Under the pieces are notes generated by a model that worked only from the letters and a program-made list of their open reading frames with translations, was not told the origin of the DNA and ran no database searches. From Halobacterium salinarum DSM 3754 (GTDB taxonomy: Archaea; Halobacteriota; Halobacteria; Halobacteriales; Halobacteriaceae), in NCBI RefSeq assembly GCF_008124605.1, contig NZ_VRYN01000002.1, forward strand, positions 186,001 through 250,000: DNA of 64,000 bases. Reading direction: 5' to 3'. Below are positions 22,646-31,832 of this stretch, piece by piece; position 1 is the stretch's first letter; every line of letters starts with the position of its first letter. The translations under genes were made by a program, and so were the position numbers.

Positions 22646-23383
22646 GTGCATAACTCGCCGGGTTGCGACGCATCGGGTGTGTCCCAGACGCCGGCGTGGG
22701 TGGTGTTCGGGCAGCGGGTGGCGTATCTCCCGGCGGCCGACGCGCTCGTGCTGGCAGATCTGCACGTGGGGCGGGGCAGCGCGTCGGACGAGCGGCGGGA
22801 CATCCTGGCCCGGTTGCGGGGCCACCTCGACCGGTTCGAGCCGGCTCGCGTGGTGGTAGCGGGTGATCTATTGCACGCCACTGGGTCGCTGCCGGCGGGG
22901 GTCGCGGAGACGGTTGGTGCAGTCGTCGGCGCGATCGAGGACAGCGCCGCGGGCCTGCGTGTGGTTCGGGGCAACCGGGACGGAATGCTTGCCGCGGTTG
23001 GCGTGTCCGCAACCGACAGCGTGCGGCTCGACGACGGCACGGTCGTGTGCCACGGCCACGAGGAGCCGGCGGCGGATGGGGACCGGTACGTGGTCGGCCA
23101 CCAGCATCCGGCCGTCACGATCAGTGGGGGGCAGCGGCGGCCGTGTTTCCTCTATGGCCCCGGGCAGTACGACAGCGCCGACGTGCTCGTGGTGCCGGCG
23201 TTCACGCGGCTCGCGGCGGGGACGCCGGTCGGAACGCTCGGCGACGGCACCGCCGTGTCGCCGCTGTTGGCGCCGCCGGCGGGCTACCGGCCGATCGTCG
23301 TCAGCAACGGGGAGACGCTGGGGTTTCCCGCGCTCGGGGATCTCGACGGGCTGTTGGTGGGCGCGCGCGGCTACGAGACGTGA
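22646..23383 (+). CDS. calcineurin-like metallophosphoesterase
   Basis: A 245-residue phosphoesterase. The five metal motifs are present: LADLHVGRG (D-x-H), VVVAGDLLH (GD), VVRGNRDG (GNxD in place of GNH), VVCHGHE (H) and VGHQHPAV (GHxH). The layout matches archaeal YfcE/PdeM-like phosphoesterases acting on nucleic acids or cyclic nucleotides. The start is GTG 22646; a second GTG at 22679 would drop 11 weakly conserved residues and may be the true start. It is tail-to-tail with the flavoprotein gene, overlapping by 13 bp. Confidence 0.85.
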   Translation: MHNSPGCDASGVSQTPAWVVFGQRVAYLPAADALVLADLHVGRGSASDERRDILARLRGHLDRFEPARVVVAGDLLHATGSLPAGVAETVGAVVGAIEDSAAGLRVVRGNRDGMLAAVGVSATDSVRLDDGTVVCHGHEEPAADGDRYVVGHQHPAVTISGGQRRPCFLYGPGQYDSADVLVVPAFTRLAAGTPVGTLGDGTAVSPLLAPPAGYRPIVVSNGETLGFPALGDLDGLLVGARGYET

Positions 23384-24636
23384 TCGCTGGCGGCGCGTGC
23401 GGCCGCCCGCCCGCTCTCCATGGCGCCGTTTATCGAGGCGTTGTGCGTGTACGAGCCGGCGACGTACACCGCGCCCGCGGGGGCGGTGGTGTCCGGGAGC
23501 GTGTCGTGGACGCCGGGGGGTTGTGCGAACTGGGAGAACGGCACCCGGTGTGTGTGCAGGACTTCGAACGCACCGAGCGACGCCTCCGGATACCAGTCGG
23601 CGATGGCGTCCCGGGCGGCGGTGGCGAGGGCCGTCGACGAGCGGTCCGGCGTGCCCAGCGTGGTCACTGCGACGAGTTCGCGGTCGTCGGGGGCGTATTC
23701 GGGCGCGACGCCGGACATCGGTGCGACGGTGTTGGGCACGTCATCGGCGGCGTTGAGGTGGATGCGGTCGCTGTCACCGAGCGGGTGGGCGGCCGGGAGC
23801 GCGACGTGTTGGGTGGTACAGCCCTTCCAGTCGGTGGGGATCGCGTCGACGCCCGTGAGCTCGCGTGCGGCGTCGGGGTCCGTGGCGACGACGACGGCGT
23901 CCGCGTCGATCCGTTCGCCGGGCACGTCGACGGCAGCGGGATCGCTGTGGACGGCTTCGACCGGCGTTTCGGGTTCGATGGTGACACCCGCATCGCGGGC
24001 ACGGGCGGCCAGCTGGGCGGAGATCGCGCCCATCCCGGCGGCCGGGAGCACGGTCCGGCCGTCGGCGAGCAGTTTGAACGTGTACTCGAAGACGCGTTTG
24101 GACGTGGACAGCGACCGATCCAGCGTGATGCCCCCGTAGAACGGCCGCACGAACCGGTCGACGTACCGGTCGGAGAACCCGCGGGCGGCGAGATACTGCT
24201 CGATGGTGGCGTCGGCGTCGCTCCAGATGTCCGCGAAGGGTTTGCGGGTCAGCTCCCGCTTCAACAGCAGCGTGCGGAGTTTGTCCATCGTCGATACCTC
24301 CCGGTTCAGCACCGACGGAACGAGTGCGCCCGGATCGCGCAGGGGGTCCCCGAGCACTGCGCGCCGGTCGCCGCGGCAGATGACCGCCCCAGGTGAAAAC
24401 GACCGCAGGTCGAGGGCGTCGAAGTCGAGTTCGCGTTTCGCCGCGGGGTACGACGTGAACAGCACCTGGAAGCCGCGGTCGAAGGTGAAGCCGTCGGCGT
24501 GCGTGGAGCGGACGCGGCCGCCGACCGTGGGGTTGCGCTCGAACAGGGTCACGTCGAGACCGTCCGCCGCGAGGTGTCGCGCCGCCACCAGCCCCGCCAG
24601 CCCGCCGCCCACAACCACTGCCTCTTCGTCGGTCAT
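23371..24636 (-). CDS. FAD-dependent amine-oxidase/phytoene-desaturase-like oxidoreductase
   Basis: A 421-residue flavoprotein. The N-terminal dinucleotide fold is textbook (VVVGGGLAGLVAARHLAADGLDVTLFERNPTVGGRVRS), and the C-terminal FAD motif is VYVAGSYTHNASINGAMESGRAAA. It lies in the NAD(P)-binding Rossmann, amine-oxidase/protoporphyrinogen-oxidase/carotene-desaturase superfamily. The substrate cannot be assigned; carotenoid, haem or quinone chemistry are all possible. ATG 24636 gives the clean start. The gene is divergent from the threonine synthase gene, with 123 bp between them. Confidence 0.85.
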   Translation of the reverse strand: MTDEEAVVVGGGLAGLVAARHLAADGLDVTLFERNPTVGGRVRSTHADGFTFDRGFQVLFTSYPAAKRELDFDALDLRSFSPGAVICRGDRRAVLGDPLRDPGALVPSVLNREVSTMDKLRTLLLKRELTRKPFADIWSDADATIEQYLAARGFSDRYVDRFVRPFYGGITLDRSLSTSKRVFEYTFKLLADGRTVLPAAGMGAISAQLAARARDAGVTIEPETPVEAVHSDPAAVDVPGERIDADAVVVATDPDAARELTGVDAIPTDWKGCTTQHVALPAAHPLGDSDRIHLNAADDVPNTVAPMSGVAPEYAPDDRELVAVTTLGTPDRSSTALATAARDAIADWYPEASLGAFEVLHTHRVPFSQFAQPPGVHDTLPDTTAPAGAVYVAGSYTHNASINGAMESGRAAARAASDHVS

Positions 24637-24759: not shown

Positions 24760-25956
24760 ATGGAGACGACGCGAGCCTTCGAGGGGCTGGAGTGCGTGGA
24801 CTGTGGGGAATCGTTCGCGGCCGCGGCGGCGACCCACCGGTGTCCGGAGTGTGGGGGCATCCTCGACCCCGCCTACGACCTGGAGAACCTGGACGTGGAC
24901 GCCGAGACGTTCGGCGCGCGGCGGTTCGACTCGCTGTGGCGGTACGCGGAGTTGCTGCCGTTCACGCGTGGGTCGGCGGTGTCGATGGACGAGGGGGCGA
25001 CGGCGCTGGTTCCGTGTCCGGGGCTGGCCGACGAACTCGGCGTGGGCGAACTCTACATCAAAGACGAGGGGCGCAACCCGACCGGCACGTTCAGGGACCG
25101 CGGGCAGACGGTGGCGATGACGGCGGCGGCCCAGCACGGTGCCAGCGAGGTGGCGTTGGCGTCGACGGGGAACGCCGGACAGTCAGCGGGAGCGTACGCC
25201 GGTCGTGCGGGCCTCGATGCACACGTGTTCCTGCCGTCCCGCTCGGGGTTCACAACCAAGGCGATGGTGAACGTCCACGGCGGCGACATGAACGTCGTGC
25301 AGGGGCGCATCGGCGACGCCAACGCCGCCTTTGAGGACGCCATGGACGAACACGGCGAGGCGTGGTACTCGCTGCAGGCGTTCGCGACGCCGTACCGCCA
25401 CGAGGGCAAAAAGACGCTGCTGTACGAGACCGTCGAGCAACTCGACTGGGAGACGCCCGACCACGTGGTCTATCCGACCGGCGACGGCGGCGGGCTCGTG
25501 GGGATGTGGAAGGCCGCCACGGAGCTCCGCGAGCTCGGCATCACCGCGGACGTGCCGGCGATGTACGCCGCACAGGCCGAGGGGTGTGCGCCGATCGTGC
25601 GGGCGTTCCAGGAGGGCCGCGACGCCCACGAGCCGTGGGACACGCCGGACACCATCTGTGGCGGCATCGAGATCCCGGACCCCGCGGGCAGCCGGCTGGT
25701 GTTGGAGGCACTGCGCGAGAGCAACGGCGGCGCGGTGGCCGCGAGCGACGAGGAGATCCTGGAGGCGGGCACCGCGGTCGCCAGCCGTGCGGGCCCGGAG
25801 ATGGGGGCGACGTGCGCGGCGGCGGCGGCGGGCGCGTGGGAGCTGGCTGACCGGGACGCGTTCGGGGAAGACGACACCGTGGTGGTGGTGAGCACGGGGA
25901 CGGCGAACAAGGCGGCGGACGTGTTGCGGTCGCATCTGATGAGCAAAGGCATCTGA
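24760..25956 (+). CDS. threonine synthase-like PLP-fold protein with Arg at the PLP-lysine position
   Basis: A 398-residue protein of the fold-type II threonine synthase family. An N-terminal zinc ribbon (CVDCGESF...CPECGG) is followed by IKDEGRNPTGTFRDRGQT, the glycine-rich STGNAGQSAGAYAG phosphate loop, and a C-terminal STGTANKAADVLRSH. In active enzymes the motif is PTG(S/T)FKDRG, with lysine forming the PLP Schiff base; here codon 112 is AGG, arginine. If that is not an assembly error, the protein cannot be an ordinary threonine synthase. Otherwise length and domains are complete, with no frameshift. Haloarchaea commonly carry several thrC paralogues, so this may be a repurposed one. Confidence 0.82.
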   Translation: METTRAFEGLECVDCGESFAAAAATHRCPECGGILDPAYDLENLDVDAETFGARRFDSLWRYAELLPFTRGSAVSMDEGATALVPCPGLADELGVGELYIKDEGRNPTGTFRDRGQTVAMTAAAQHGASEVALASTGNAGQSAGAYAGRAGLDAHVFLPSRSGFTTKAMVNVHGGDMNVVQGRIGDANAAFEDAMDEHGEAWYSLQAFATPYRHEGKKTLLYETVEQLDWETPDHVVYPTGDGGGLVGMWKAATELRELGITADVPAMYAAQAEGCAPIVRAFQEGRDAHEPWDTPDTICGGIEIPDPAGSRLVLEALRESNGGAVAASDEEILEAGTAVASRAGPEMGATCAAAAAGAWELADRDAFGEDDTVVVVSTGTANKAADVLRSHLMSKGI

Positions 25957-26103: not shown

Positions 26104-27060
26104 ATGCCAACTGAGCACACGCGTCGGCGGTTCCTGCAGGCGACTGGGGCAACCAGCATCGCTGCGCTGGCTGGGTGCGCCGGCGGTGACGACGGGGCCG
26201 GGGACGGCACGCGGCTGTCGTGGCACGCGGGCGGCCAGAGTGGCACGTACTACCCGCTGTCGAACGAGTTCAAGACCATCGTCGAGGACAACACGGACTA
26301 CTCGCTGAACGTCCAGACCACGGGCGCAAGCGTGGAGAACGTCGGCAGCCTCGCGAAGGGGAACGCCGACTTCGCGCTCATCCAAAACGACATCGCGTAC
26401 TTCGCGAAGAACGGCACCGGGATCGATGCCTTCCAGGACAGGGCGGTCGACAACCTCGCCGGCGTCGCCACGCTGTACCCGGAGACGATCACGCTGATCA
26501 CGCGTGCGGACACCGGCATCGAGACCGTGGCCGACCTCGACGGCGCGACCATCAACACCGGTGACCTCGGGTCCGGCACGCAGGTCAACGCCCTCCAGAT
26601 CCTGGAGGCCGCCGGCGTGACCGACTACGAGGAGCAGACCGCGTCGTTCGCACAGGCCGCCGAACAGCTCCGGAACGGCGACATCGACGCCGCCTTCGTG
26701 GTCGGCGGCTGGCCCGTGGGTGCCATCGAGGAGTTGGCCAACACCAACGACATCGAGATCGTGCCCATCGAGGGAGAGGCCCGCGACGCCGCCAAGGAGG
26801 CGGCGTCCTGGTTCGCCGACGACACCATCCCGAGCGGGACGTACAGCGGCATCGACCGGTCCATCGAAACCGTCTCCGTGCAGGCGATGATCGCGACCCA
26901 CGACGGCGTCGACGAGGCGACCGTCACGGCGGTCACGAGCGCGATCTTCGAGCACACCGGCGACCTGACCATCAAACCCGACTTCATCGACACGGCGTCG
27001 GCCCAGGACGGGATGTCCATCGACCTCCACCCTGGCGCGGCCGCCTACTTCGAGTCGTAA
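26104..27060 (+). CDS. TAXI-type TRAP transporter substrate-binding lipoprotein
   Basis: A 318-residue secreted binding protein. The N-terminus has a twin-arginine signal and lipobox (TRRRFLQATGATSIAALAGCAGG). The mature part matches the TAXI (NMT1-like) family: GGQSGTYYPLSNEFKTIVED, TTGASVENVGSLAKGNADFALIQNDIAY, LVTRADTGI-like segment and GDLGSGTQVNALQILEAAG. It captures a small acidic substrate, possibly glutamate or another organic acid, for the fused permease at 27606. Spacing to the next gene is 61 bp, one operon. Confidence 0.92.
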   Translation: MPTEHTRRRFLQATGATSIAALAGCAGGDDGAGDGTRLSWHAGGQSGTYYPLSNEFKTIVEDNTDYSLNVQTTGASVENVGSLAKGNADFALIQNDIAYFAKNGTGIDAFQDRAVDNLAGVATLYPETITLITRADTGIETVADLDGATINTGDLGSGTQVNALQILEAAGVTDYEEQTASFAQAAEQLRNGDIDAAFVVGGWPVGAIEELANTNDIEIVPIEGEARDAAKEAASWFADDTIPSGTYSGIDRSIETVSVQAMIATHDGVDEATVTAVTSAIFEHTGDLTIKPDFIDTASAQDGMSIDLHPGAAAYFES

Positions 27061-27121
27061 CGCCGCCTCCACACCCCACACGCGGGTGTTTCACAAGCCA
27101 CATGCGTAGAGAGATCAGTTC

Positions 27122-27613
27122 ATGAACCGCACTCGTATCGTCGTCGTGGCGGCCAGCGTCCTGGCCGTGCTGACAGTGATCGCTGCCGTCGTGCCGGCCG
27201 GAACTGTCCTGGTCGCCGACGACACCGACACCGACCAGCGGTATCTCACGGTGCCCGTCTCCGAGGGCTCGACGGTGGCGCTGGAGTACACACACAGCGT
27301 CGAGCGCTCCCGCGTCTACGAGGCCTACGCCGTTCGCGGCGAGACCCTGGAGATGACGCGCGCGGAGTTCGAGTCGTACGGCTGGGGGTTCCCCAGCGCC
27401 GCGAACGTCACCATCGAGAACGGGACGTTCGTCTACTCGCCGGACCGCACCGCCACCGTGTTGACGGTGTCACCGGGACGCATCGCCGGGCACACGCTGC
27501 ACGTCGACGACCGAAGCTACGACCTCGTCTCGGTGACCGACGCACAATCAGTTGATCTTCATGTTGTCCATCGAACACTCCTTGCGACGATGATCGAGAG
27601 CATCTATGAGTAA
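27122..27613 (+). CDS. DUF1850 protein of the TAXI-TRAP operon
   Basis: A 163-residue protein with an N-terminal hydrophobic signal or anchor (VVVAASVLAVLTVIAAVVPAG) and a beta-rich outer domain: LTVPVSEGSTVALEYTHSVERSRVYEAYAVRGETL, which is the DUF1850 pattern. DUF1850 genes are repeatedly found between TAXI binding proteins and their permeases; its role there is unproven. It overlaps the permease start by 8 bp. Confidence 0.85.
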   Translation: MNRTRIVVVAASVLAVLTVIAAVVPAGTVLVADDTDTDQRYLTVPVSEGSTVALEYTHSVERSRVYEAYAVRGETLEMTRAEFESYGWGFPSAANVTIENGTFVYSPDRTATVLTVSPGRIAGHTLHVDDRSYDLVSVTDAQSVDLHVVHRTLLATMIESIYE

Positions 27614-30320
27614 CGACCACTCGACGACGGACGCGCCGGACGCGGACTCAGTACTGCAAGAGATCGAGCGGAAACGCGACCTCAGCGGGCGGATCGTGCT
27701 GGCGGTCGCCGCGATCGGGATCGCGTTCTCCGTGTTCCAGTTGTGGCTGGCGGCCCGGGGTTCGGTGCTCTCGGTGTCGCTCCCGATCGTGGGGTCGGTC
27801 ACGCTGGCGAAACTCCAATTGCTCCAGATCAACGCCGTGCACGTGGCGTTCGCGCTCGTGTTGACGTTCCTGCTGTATCCGGCGAGCACCGGTGACGGGC
27901 CCGTGGCGCGGCGGTGCAAGCGGCTGTCGGAGGCGGCCACCGCCAGGCTGGGCTCGTCGCACCCGGTGACCCGCGTGATCAACGCTGTCGGCGCGGGCCT
28001 GGCGTGGGCGGTCGTCGACGACGACCTCGACGCCGTGGCCCCGGTCGACATCGCGTTCGCGGCGGTGTCGGCGCTGGCGGCGGTGTACTTCATCACGGAC
28101 TTCGCCGAGATCCGCGAGCTCCGGTATCTGGGCCTGACCGCTGGGCGTCCGCTCCCGACGGTGTGGCTCGGCTACCTCGACGTGATCCGGCCGGTGTTCG
28201 ACGCGCTCAGCCCCGTCCTGAACCCTGCCGGGGCGTTGCTGGGGCCGCTCGGCCACACCTCCTACGCGCTCGTGCTCGGCGCGGTCGGCGTGGTGCTCGT
28301 GCTCGAAGCCACGCGACGAGCGATCAGCCTCTGGCTGATGTGCATCGTCGCCGCGTTCATCGCGTACGCCCGTTTCGGCTACCTCATTCCACAGGACGTG
28401 GCGTACCTGCAGATCATCTCGATCCCGCCGTTCGCGTGGCCGGAGATCATCCAAAACCTCTGGTATAACACCGAGAACGGCGTGTTCGGGATTCCGGTCA
28501 CGGTGTCCGTGCAGTTCATCTACGTGTTCATCCTGTTCGGTGCGTTCCTGGAGATGTCGGGCGCCGGTCAGTGGTTCATCGACCTGGCCTACGGCGCGAC
28601 CGGAACCCGGAAAGGCGGCCCCGCGAAGGCCTCCATCCTGGCGTCCGGGTTCATGGGCACCATCTCGGGGTCGTCGATCGCGAACACGGTGACGACGGGC
28701 GCGTTCACCATCCCGCTGATGAAGCGCTCGGGATACCGCCCGGAGTTCGCGGGCGCGGTCGAGGCGTCGGCGTCCTCGGGCGGCCAGATCCTCCCCCCAG
28801 TCATGGGGGCGGCGGCGTTCCTCATCGTGCAGTACACCGGCACGCCGTTCGCGGACGTGATCGTCGCCGCGACCATCCCCGCACTCGTGTTCTTCTTCGG
28901 CGTGTGGGTGATGGTGCATTTCGAGGCCGGCAAAGAGGACATCGGCGGGCTCGGCACCGATGACCTGGTGTCGCTTCGGTCGCACCTCCGCACCGGCTGG
29001 TTCTACCTCGTCCCGATCGGGTTGTTGTTGTACTACCTGATCGTCGAGCGGCTGTCGGTGGCGCGCTCGGCGTGGTTCACGATCGTCGCGATCGGCGCAC
29101 TGATGGCGCTGGTGGCGGCGTACGGCGACGAAACCCGCGGCCTGCTGGGCGGCGTGCTGACGGTGGTGACCGGTGGCACGCTGCTGGCGGAGTGGCTGGG
29201 GGGCGGCTCACTGGTGGCGGTGCTGACCGGTGGTGGTGCCGGCGCGCAGCCGCTGGGCGGAGCGGTTGCCGCGACGCTGGGTGAACTCGGCTGGCTGGCG
29301 ATCGCGGCGGGCGTGATAACGATGGCGCTGCGGCCGCGGGCGGACGCCAGCCTGCTGGGCTTCGACGACGCCGTCGACGACACCGCGGGCGCGGTCAGCG
29401 CCGCGGTGGGGCGCCCGTCGCTTGCCGGCAACGGGCTGTTCCGGTACGGGGTGTTCACCCTGAAGTCGATGGAGGACGGCGCCCGGACCGCGGTCCCGGT
29501 CGTGATCGCCGTCGCCGCGGCCGGCGTCATCCCGGGCGTCATCAGCATCTCCGGGCTCGGGCCGAACCTGGTGTCGCTGATTCAGGCCGTCGCGGGGGGC
29601 TCGCTGGTGGTCGTGCTCGCGATCACGGCGATCTCCTCGATCATCCTCGGGATGGGGATGCCGACGACGGTCACGTACATCATCCTCTCCGTGTTGCTCG
29701 TGCCGGTGTTGCTGCCGTTCGGGGTGCCGGAGCTCGCCGCGCACCTGTACATCCTGTATTTCGGCGTCATCGCGGACATCACGCCGCCGGTCGCGGTGGC
29801 GGCGTACGCTGCCGCCGGGGTGGCGAAATCGGACCCGTTCGACACCGGCGTCGAGGCGTTCTCGCTGTCGCTGAACAAGGCCATCGTGCCGTTCGCGTTC
29901 GTGGTGACGCCAGGGGTCATGCTGTTGCGGCGCAACGCCGGGTCGCTGCCGCCGGGCGACCAGTACAGCGTCGTCGGCGTGGCTGACCTCCTCGACGTGG
30001 GGTATTCGGTTCCGGAGGTGGTGCTCCCCATTGCGGGTGTCGTTCTGGGTGTCGTGGCGCTGGCTGCGACCGTCATCGGGCACGTGTACACCGACGTTGC
30101 GCGCGCCGAGCGCGTGGCGTACGCGGGCAGCGCGCTGTTTCTGATGGCACCCACGCTCATCGTCACCACGGCCAACGACGTGCTCGGCCTGCTGGGCGTT
30201 GCGGGCGGACAGACGGGTGTCGTGGTGGATCTCGGACTGCGGGCGATCGGGCTCGTGGTGTTCGCGGCGCTGCTCGTGCGGAACCGTCGTGCGAGCACCG
30301 CCGAGGAACCGGCCGCGTAG
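27606..30320 (+). CDS. fused TRAP transporter permease (DctQM, TAXI type)
   Basis: A 904-residue polytopic permease with the small (DctQ-like, about 40-290) and large (DctM-like) TRAP subunits in one chain. Family stretches include FIYVFILFGAFLEMSGAGQWFIDLAYGATG, KGGPAKASILASGFMGTISGSSIANTVTTGAFTIPLMKR and GMGMPTTVTYIILSVLLVPVL. It would use the Na+ gradient to import the substrate delivered by the TAXI protein, sensible in a high-Na+ habitat and linked in energy terms to the Mrp antiporter. An extra loop and helices at about 500-590 lie between conserved blocks. Confidence 0.92.
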   Translation: MSNDHSTTDAPDADSVLQEIERKRDLSGRIVLAVAAIGIAFSVFQLWLAARGSVLSVSLPIVGSVTLAKLQLLQINAVHVAFALVLTFLLYPASTGDGPVARRCKRLSEAATARLGSSHPVTRVINAVGAGLAWAVVDDDLDAVAPVDIAFAAVSALAAVYFITDFAEIRELRYLGLTAGRPLPTVWLGYLDVIRPVFDALSPVLNPAGALLGPLGHTSYALVLGAVGVVLVLEATRRAISLWLMCIVAAFIAYARFGYLIPQDVAYLQIISIPPFAWPEIIQNLWYNTENGVFGIPVTVSVQFIYVFILFGAFLEMSGAGQWFIDLAYGATGTRKGGPAKASILASGFMGTISGSSIANTVTTGAFTIPLMKRSGYRPEFAGAVEASASSGGQILPPVMGAAAFLIVQYTGTPFADVIVAATIPALVFFFGVWVMVHFEAGKEDIGGLGTDDLVSLRSHLRTGWFYLVPIGLLLYYLIVERLSVARSAWFTIVAIGALMALVAAYGDETRGLLGGVLTVVTGGTLLAEWLGGGSLVAVLTGGGAGAQPLGGAVAATLGELGWLAIAAGVITMALRPRADASLLGFDDAVDDTAGAVSAAVGRPSLAGNGLFRYGVFTLKSMEDGARTAVPVVIAVAAAGVIPGVISISGLGPNLVSLIQAVAGGSLVVVLAITAISSIILGMGMPTTVTYIILSVLLVPVLLPFGVPELAAHLYILYFGVIADITPPVAVAAYAAAGVAKSDPFDTGVEAFSLSLNKAIVPFAFVVTPGVMLLRRNAGSLPPGDQYSVVGVADLLDVGYSVPEVVLPIAGVVLGVVALAATVIGHVYTDVARAERVAYAGSALFLMAPTLIVTTANDVLGLLGVAGGQTGVVVDLGLRAIGLVVFAALLVRNRRASTAEEPAA

Positions 30321-30430: not shown

Positions 30431-30455
30431 AAATATATATTTAGATGCATCTAAA
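30431..30455. promoter_or_regulatory. TATA box and 16-bp palindromic operator of the DtxR-GDT1 operon
   Basis: AAATATATATTT (30431-30442) is a strong TATA element. The perfect palindrome TTTAGATGCATCTAAA occupies 30440-30455, between the TATA box and the ATG at 30469. A repressor here would block RNA polymerase loading or start. The half-site is close to DtxR-family half-sites, and the first gene encodes such a regulator, so autoregulation is the natural reading. Confidence 0.7.
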
Positions 30456-30468
30456 CGACGGTGTTGGC

Positions 30469-31146
30469 ATGCTCTCTGACGTAATGGAAGACTACCTCAA
30501 ATCGATCTACAACCTCGAACGCGAACACGAACCGCCGATCGCGACGTCCACCATCGCGGAGTACCTGGACGTCACGCCGCCCACGGTCACCAGCATGGCC
30601 GAGAAGCTCGAATCCCGCGGCCTGATCGAGCGCGAGAAGTACGCGGGCGTCGAGCTCACGCCCGACGGCGAAACCGTCGCCGTGGAAGTGATCCGCCACC
30701 ACCGCCTGCTCGAATCGTTTTTGGCGACCCATCTGGACTACGACTGGGACGAAGTCCACGACGAGGCCGACGCCCTCGAACACCACATCAGCGAGGAGTT
30801 CGAGGACCGACTCGCGGAGAAACTCGGCGACCCGACGGTCGATCCCCACGGCGACCCCATCCCGAACGCCGACCTCGAACCGCCCGAGCACCCCGACACC
30901 GAGGTGCTTGCCGACCACGCCGAAGGCGACGCCCTCGTGGTGGCGCGCGCAAGCGACCGCAACACCGACGAGCTCCGATATCTCGCCGACGCCGGCGTGC
31001 AGCCCGGCACTGAACTCACGGTCACCGAGCACGCGCCCATCGGCCTGTTCGTCGTCGAGATCGACGGCGAAGCCGTCCACCTCCCCGAGCGCGTCGCGGA
31101 AACGCTCGAAGTCAGACCCGCGGCCGACGAGGTGACCGACGCGTGA
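30469..31146 (+). CDS. DtxR/MntR-family metal-dependent regulator
   Basis: A 225-residue regulator in the full three-domain form. The winged helix (about 1-65) is MLSDVMEDYLKSIYNLEREHEPPIATSTIAEYLDVTPPTVTSMAEKLESRGLIEREKYAGVELT; the metal-binding dimer domain has HHRLLESFLATHL, ALEHHISEEFEDRL and the usual DPHGDPIP; the C-terminus (about 150-225) is an SH3-like FeoA domain. It should repress with Fe2+ or Mn2+ bound. ATG 30469 was chosen because an earlier in-frame ATG at 30445 lies inside the operator palindrome. It is coupled (GTGA) to the GDT1-type transporter, which points to manganese. Confidence 0.92.
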   Translation: MLSDVMEDYLKSIYNLEREHEPPIATSTIAEYLDVTPPTVTSMAEKLESRGLIEREKYAGVELTPDGETVAVEVIRHHRLLESFLATHLDYDWDEVHDEADALEHHISEEFEDRLAEKLGDPTVDPHGDPIPNADLEPPEHPDTEVLADHAEGDALVVARASDRNTDELRYLADAGVQPGTELTVTEHAPIGLFVVEIDGEAVHLPERVAETLEVRPAADEVTDA

Positions 31147-31832
31147 GCGCGTTCACGGAAGTCCTGACGCTCGCGTTCGTCACGCAACTCGCAGCGCTCC
31201 CGGGCGAAAAGGTCCAGTTCATCATCGCCAGCCTCAGCACCGAATACGACCCGCGGATCGTCGTCGCAGCGGCCGGCTCCGCGTTCGGCATCTGGACCGT
31301 GATCGAGATCCTCGTCGGGGAGGGGCTCCAACGCCTCATTCCCGGTGTCGTCTTGGACGTGACAACCGCCGCCCTGTTCGCCGTGTTCGGCATTCTGCTG
31401 TTGCGGTCGATGCCCGCACGAACCGGGTCTGACGAACCCATGTCAAGCGACGGCGGGGGCGTCGCGGCCAGCATCGACGACGTGACCCTGTTCGGGTACC
31501 GCCTCACCACGGCGCTCGGCGGCTTCATCCCCATCTTCTCGATGATGTTCGCCGGCGAGTTCGGCGACAAAACACAGCTGGTCACCATCGGACTGGCAAG
31601 CGACTACGGCGCGACGCCCGCGATCTGGCTGGGGGAAATGCTGGCGATCATTCCCGTCAGCATGGTGAACGCGTACTTCTTCGACCGCTTCTCCGGGAAG
31701 TTCGACGCGCGCAAGGCGCACCTCGTGTCCGCAGTGCTGTTTTTCTTCTTCGCAGGGGACACGCTCCTAGAAGTGAGTGTCGGCGTCTCCGTCTGGGAGG
31801 AACTGGTGGCGCTCGCCAGCCAGCTGCTCTGA
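31143..31832 (+). CDS. GDT1/TMEM165 (UPF0016) family divalent cation transporter
   Basis: A 229-residue protein with six predicted helices in two repeats around a Gly/Asp-rich loop. The second repeat has the family motif EFGDKT (residues 139-144). The first is degenerate: LPGEKVQ at 19-25, lacking the leading Glu and the Thr. Family members export Mn2+ or exchange Ca2+/Mn2+ for H+. The GTG start overlaps the regulator's stop by 4 bases, so it is probably a metal exporter controlled by that regulator. Confidence 0.87.
   Translation: MSAFTEVLTLAFVTQLAALPGEKVQFIIASLSTEYDPRIVVAAAGSAFGIWTVIEILVGEGLQRLIPGVVLDVTTAALFAVFGILLLRSMPARTGSDEPMSSDGGGVAASIDDVTLFGYRLTTALGGFIPIFSMMFAGEFGDKTQLVTIGLASDYGATPAIWLGEMLAIIPVSMVNAYFFDRFSGKFDARKAHLVSAVLFFFFAGDTLLEVSVGVSVWEELVALASQLL

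Follow-up and report, generated by a model that had tools for sequence, protein, structure and literature searches.

A haloarchaeal threonine synthase-like protein family in which the Schiff-base lysine was lost at least twice

An arginine at the Schiff-base position of a threonine synthase-like protein

The window, the whole 64,000-nucleotide stretch of Halobacterium DNA that was analysed, contains a ThrC2-like gene whose translation product (METTRAF...SHLMSKGI) runs for 398 residues with no internal stop (Table 1). The product matched PF00291, the PALP fold-type II superfamily, across the whole domain (residues 74-380; 218 bits against a cut-off of 35), and scored 354 bits against a cut-off of 303 with the NCBIfam 'threonine synthase' equivalog NF006050 (PRK08197). 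In ThrS, the lysine of the NPTGSFKDRG motif forms a Schiff base with PLP. When the window protein was aligned by HMMER to the solved threonine synthases 2zsj, 1uim and 6cgq, Arg112 stood opposite this lysine, which is Lys61 when counted along the Thermus 1uim row; the translation of the AGG codon and the alignment together uphold the replacement claimed by the first-pass annotation.

With threonine synthase (ThrC; Thermus 1uim, Aquifex 2zsj, Mycobacterium 2d1f) the window protein shares the PALP fold, the zinc ribbon, the NPTGxFxDRG region and an alignment over its full length, but it lacks two features of the working enzyme: the Schiff-base lysine of PTG(S/T)FKDRG, and the PLP-phosphate loop, which reads GDGGG instead of GNAGN (GGGVG or GGGTG in proteins of PRK08197 type; GGGVG in its lysine-bearing, or K-type, relatives). 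It also carries two haloarchaeal signatures that ThrC lacks. The zinc ribbon is intact, as the first-pass annotation had stated; its further statement that all other family motifs are intact does not hold, given the changes in the phosphate loop (G242D, V244G), T207A, G309A/A310G/P312R and N378S. An AlphaFold model, based on an alignment of six rows, was of low quality (pLDDT 63); a Foldseek search with it ranked threonine synthases first, with TM-scores near 0.5 and an rmsd near 10 Å, values which make the model useless for pocket geometry.

Table 1. Features of the ThrC2-like gene and its surroundings, in window coordinates
Feature	Coordinates	Strand	Remarks
Divergent flavin amine-oxidoreductase gene	23371..24636	-	Conserved upstream neighbour of K-type and lysine-less orthologues
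ThrC2-like gene	24760..25956	+	PALP fold-II protein, 398 aa, stop included in coordinates; above NF006050 'threonine synthase' cut-off
N-terminal zinc ribbon	24793..24852	+	Intact; C12, C15, C28, C31 (CxxC...CxxC)
NPTGTFRDRG motif (residues 106-115)	25075..25104	+	
Arg112	25093..25095	+	Codon AGG; Schiff-base lysine position (Thermus ThrS Lys61)
A136T	25165..25167	+	T also in about half of lysine-less orthologues
Family signature PSRSGFTTKAMVNVHGG	25234..25284	+	In K-type and lysine-less proteins, absent from other ThrC-like proteins
T207A	25378..25380	+	Aligns with Thermus ThrS Asn154; A in 10/41 lysine-less
M220L	25417..25419	+	L in 16/41 lysine-less
PLP-phosphate loop PTGDGGGL (residues 239-246)	25474..25497	+	K-type consensus PTGGGVGL, hence G242D, V244G
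DPAGSR (residues 307-312)	25678..25695	+	K-type DPGASP; G309A, A310G are majority states of the lysine-less clade
N378S	25891..25893	+	Private change; column kept even in the lysine-less clade
C-terminal family signature DVLRSHLMSKGI	25918..25953	+	
TAXI-type TRAP transporter genes (NMT1_3, DUF1850, DctM)	26104..30320	+	Between the window gene and the regulator
DtxR/SirR-type regulator and GDT1 cation antiporter	30445..31832	+	Conserved downstream neighbours of both types

The genome is a 2.36-Mb draft of 40 contigs with 99.2% completeness; its close relatives are Halobacterium, and the analysis covered this one assembly of the species. Seven PALP proteins are encoded. One is a canonical ThrC (ThrC1), with a zinc ribbon, NPTGSFKDRG, a GNAGN loop and a TIGR00260 score of 285 bits against a cut-off of 167, and another is a second lysine-bearing ThrC-like protein with the motif CPSGSYKDRG; the cell thus need not rely on the window gene to make threonine. 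The first-pass annotation had raised a regulatory or sensing role beside a true ThrC elsewhere in the genome, and such a role is possible, given a real Lys-to-Arg change in a gene that is not decaying and these lysine-bearing proteins elsewhere.

K-type and lysine-less genes were found at one locus, in which a divergent flavin amine-oxidoreductase gene, the ThrC-like gene, a DtxR-type regulator, a GDT1 antiporter and a LysE translocator recur; this comparison relied on a composition-based gene caller and clustering, and the caller missed or misjoined some genes. Clustering of context over all six-frame ORFs was dropped, as antisense ORFs were mixed in. The TAXI-TRAP cluster is inserted before the regulator in some Halobacterium, inverted in some other genomes of the genus and absent in others. 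The SirR-type regulator, GDT1 and LysE instead suggest transport of metals or amino acids, possibly with no relation to the role of the ThrC-like protein. Since in Haloferax volcanii SirR is HVO_0819 (PMC11349517) and HVO_0817 is an amine-oxidoreductase related to the Halobacterium crtI3 product (PMC4300041), synteny predicts HVO_0818 to be the ThrC2 orthologue of that species; HVO_0818 was not named in any open-access paper searched. In the same species, an insertion in thrC3 (HVO_2969) causes auxotrophy (PMC4300041).

Lysine-less orthologues across the haloarchaea

The congeneric genomes (12/12) each contain an orthologue of the window gene, 76-85% identical to it, in which this codon is AAG (Lys); Halobacterium sp. 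TGN-42-S1 offers one example of a K-type protein. The degenerate pattern NPTG[ST]F-Arg-x-RG matched this genome alone among 391 haloarchaea. The first-pass annotation implied an isolated oddity, which is not supported: lysine-less orthologues are widespread in haloarchaea. A broad alignment revealed an orthologue from the same family (G348) with Ala112 and with changes at columns also altered in the window gene, and a pattern that left residue 111 free and took all codons at 112 except the A-initial ones, which thus go uncounted, matched 175/391 genomes and 43/86 genera, against one match for a reversed control pattern. The resulting lysine-less share of about 45% is an estimate, because a few matches are plainly other genes (e.g. 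NPTGWRQDRG). Ala, Leu, Val, Asp, His, Tyr and Glu occupy the lysine column (NPTGTVLDRG, NPTGTFLDRG, NPTGTVADRG, NPTGTIDDRG, NPTGTYVDRG, NPTGTVYDRG, NPTGTFHDRG, NPTGTFEDRG and others), and the phosphate loop of these relatives carries mostly E/T/H. In one such orthologue (L208 of genome G375, positions 1-2001; NPTGTFEDRG) the glutamate has the charge opposite to lysine; the same genome has a second match to the non-lysine pattern.

In genera g9 (five genomes) and g36 (two genomes) an additional, closer ThrC2-type gene lies elsewhere, and the copies read have the lysine. No second ThrC2-type copy was found in the sampled genomes of g10, g12, g13, g23, g39 and g44, in which a more distant ThrC1-type relative is present. 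In several families most orthologues are K-type, and PLP chemistry is therefore clearly important to many lineages. With NF006050, the G348 orthologue (Ala112) scored 344 bits, above the cut-off of 303, and more divergent lysine-less proteins fell below it (284, 264); the model does not require the lysine and therefore gives lysine-less proteins the name threonine synthase. Searches of an open-access library turned up no account of ThrC proteins without the lysine.

We define the haloarchaeal ThrC2-like family by two signatures and by the locus beside the amine-oxidoreductase and SirR/GDT1 genes, and the window protein belongs to it. PSRxxFxxKAMxNVHGG was present in 43/49 K-type proteins (including the window protein) and 28/41 lysine-less proteins, and the C-terminal DVLRSHLM in 39/49 (again including the window protein) and 32/41, respectively; each was found in 0/38 other ThrC-like proteins. 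Common to K-type, lysine-less and window proteins are also K101, D102, NPTG, DRG, R161, F164, K167, M169, H173, Q272, C276, P278, D297, T298, D330, D387, R390 and L393. The zinc ribbon is gone or altered in several lysine-less proteins (9/41 fail CxxC...CxxC, at least two of them by spacing alone). From the retained signatures, and from the C-terminal motif outlasting the zinc ribbon in several lysine-less proteins, we infer that selection holds something other than the PLP site.

Several further observations were made in the course of these searches. Some lysine-less orthologues (L156, L157, L160, L163, L164 and L128) are without the N-terminal zinc-ribbon cysteines and still have the C-terminal LRSHLM. 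L107 and L109 (G013, G018) encode another ThrC-like paralogue, whose motif is NPTGCLKDRATS and whose loop is GDGCTIAG. PSGSFKDRG-type ThrC-like matches in L121 (G046) and L122 (G348) each lie in a stretch with one in-frame stop (TAG and TGA, respectively), possibly reflecting pseudogenes, sequencing errors or end effects. Plasmid homologues were rejected as lysine-less family members, being a different, lysine-bearing paralogue; this plasmid-borne haloarchaeal protein (L174-L177; NPTNTFKDRG) is annotated threonine synthase, in places adjoins sugar-acid catabolism or IclR genes, and possibly has another activity.

Parallel changes in the pocket, selection and alternative explanations

Of the columns with 97% or higher conservation among 48 K-type proteins, 20 are abandoned in 41 lysine-less proteins and 144 are not. 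The window protein departs from the K-type consensus at nine of the 20 abandoned columns (112, 136, 207, 220, 242, 244, 309, 310 and 312) and at one of the 144 others (378), a difference with a Fisher p of 8e-9, or still 6e-8 when column 112 was left out. The next-best K-type protein gave p = 0.007 (95% threshold), and none comes close to the window protein. Five of the changes (A136T, T207A, M220L, G309A and A310G) reach states common in lysine-less proteins. At columns 242 and 244, G and V are invariant or nearly so among K-types; alignment to Thermus ThrS places both in the PLP-phosphate loop and, judged from homologous structures, they and column 207 would line the cofactor site.

In trees without the trait columns, and also in one with all columns, the window gene (G000) fell inside Halobacterium with G006 and G003 at a support of 99; because it is nested there, its lysine loss is independent. 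The other lysine-less proteins formed one clade in two trees and were paraphyletic, with low support (34-69), under a bacterial root with all abandoned columns dropped. At least two losses are safe. Different trees imply different numbers of ancient losses, with low support at the base when the trait columns are dropped, and there may have been more than two losses in all.

A codon model (GY94-type, F3x4, with neighbouring genes as controls and HD, FADox and PAC2 excluded because they were cut out of frame) gave the window branch an omega of 0.047, against 0.048 for the remaining branches (p = 0.95). These values are approximate because synonymous sites approach saturation on the long branch leading to G000. 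As omega on this branch equals the background, the gene is not decaying, in agreement with the first-pass annotation. For the canonical ThrC1 of the same genome, omega was 0.079 on the window branch and 0.048 elsewhere. In five genomes, omega was 0.033 for the lysine-less copies and 0.021 for the lysine-bearing ThrC2 copies that accompany them, and no stop codons interrupted the lysine-less genes that were read. The window protein thus combines lost catalytic residues with retained purifying selection, as a maintained pseudoenzyme would, within the precision that synonymous saturation allows. At columns invariant in the congeners, G000 has 27 differences against 0-7 private changes in the congeners; relaxed selection was rejected as a reading of this count, since most neighbouring genes also give G000 a long branch and the omega of the window gene is normal.

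These values bear on the best-surviving alternative, that the window gene is a recent loss-of-function allele of a dispensable enzyme, an early pseudogene whose frame is still open. Such an allele would explain the loss of both catalytic lysine and phosphate loop in a genome with redundant ThrC-like proteins, and N378S strikes a column kept even in lysine-less relatives; however, omega matches the background and ThrC1 is not more constrained, the conserved changes are concentrated in pocket columns, the family signatures are intact and long-lived lysine-less orthologues exist elsewhere. We consider a pseudogene unlikely.

Next in standing is a protein that remains a PLP enzyme of altered or slow chemistry, with Arg112 binding PLP non-covalently or with K101 or K167 forming the aldimine. 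Both lysines are 100% conserved in the K-type and lysine-less sets and NPTG and DRG still flank the altered position, but K101 is a general PALP residue that is present alongside the normal lysine, and the A/L/V/D/E/Y/H column and mostly E/T/H loop of the lysine-less relatives are hard to fit with phosphate binding. The acidic residues of the phosphate loop would likewise argue against PLP binding, and retained PLP catalysis also seems improbable to us.

The AGG codon differs from AAG by a single A-to-G change in a draft of 40 contigs; a sequencing or assembly error is nevertheless very unlikely because eight further deeply conserved columns changed along with Arg112, by the same route as in an independent clade, and a chance base error cannot account for this parallel pattern. 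Gene conversion or transfer of the pocket from a lysine-less homologue, to which the shared A136T, M220L, G309A and A310G might be ascribed, can be dismissed almost entirely: local DNA identity gave no sign of it, G000 being closest to G006/G003 in every 40-codon window and never clearly nearer the lysine-less G348/G099 genes than G006 is, and the tree places it within Halobacterium.

A probable PLP-independent function for the ThrC2 family

We think it likely that the ThrC2 family has a selected, PLP-independent function, and that an ancestral lysine and phosphate loop were lost in an old clade and, independently, in the window lineage, through the same pocket columns. Behind this reading stand the two losses of the lysine, the loss of the loop, the conserved locus, purifying selection and the parallel substitutions. 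The family would be haloarchaea-wide, with a selected function that needs no PLP catalysis; its ancestor would have borne the Schiff-base lysine, one old, large clade would have shed lysine and PLP-phosphate loop, and the Halobacterium lineage of the window would have done so a second time, with replacements at the same columns. PLP chemistry in the lysine-less proteins would then be absent or negligible, and the retained role may, most tentatively, be non-catalytic binding.

As to that role, we judge it most likely that the protein would join a lysine-bearing fold-II enzyme as a heteromeric or allosteric partner; next comes sensing of an amino acid or phospho-amino acid through the old pocket. 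The partner is slightly favoured by analogy with catalytically dead paralogues that activate a living partner, as in trypanosomatid deoxyhypusine synthase (PMC3663545) and the AdoMetDC prozyme (PMC5201418). ThrC2 has in common with these systems a lost catalytic residue, an ORF under selection and a living paralogue in the cell; it differs in that orthologues at a single locus underwent the loss, at least twice, and in that its partner is a hypothetical one. A further comparison comes from another fold. The LCB1/SPTLC1 subunit of serine palmitoyltransferase is, like ThrC2, a PLP-fold protein that was retained after losing its lysine, but it is of fold type I and a known obligate heterodimer. 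The fuller statement, in which the main function of ThrC2 is PLP-independent, the cofactor site was repeatedly shed along one path while a conserved surface was held, and the protein is a regulator or sensor, we hold with about even confidence. The window gene probably has a second job.

Because the lysine is lost in about 45% of the sampled relatives under strong selection, the database label threonine synthase is probably wrong; a large set of 'threonine synthases' of Halobacteria are very probably not threonine synthases, and the window gene is probably among them. Such mislabelling affects pathway reconstructions, and annotation pipelines will overlook the lysine loss, as the Ala112 orthologue that passes the NF006050 cut-off illustrates. 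The predicted member in Haloferax volcanii lies in a genetically tractable species. If the proposed history is true, the family would be a natural replicate experiment, in which one PLP enzyme was twice deprived of its cofactor site at a single locus, each time with matching substitutions and under selection, and the two parallel losses would allow residues serving catalysis to be sorted from those serving a hidden function.
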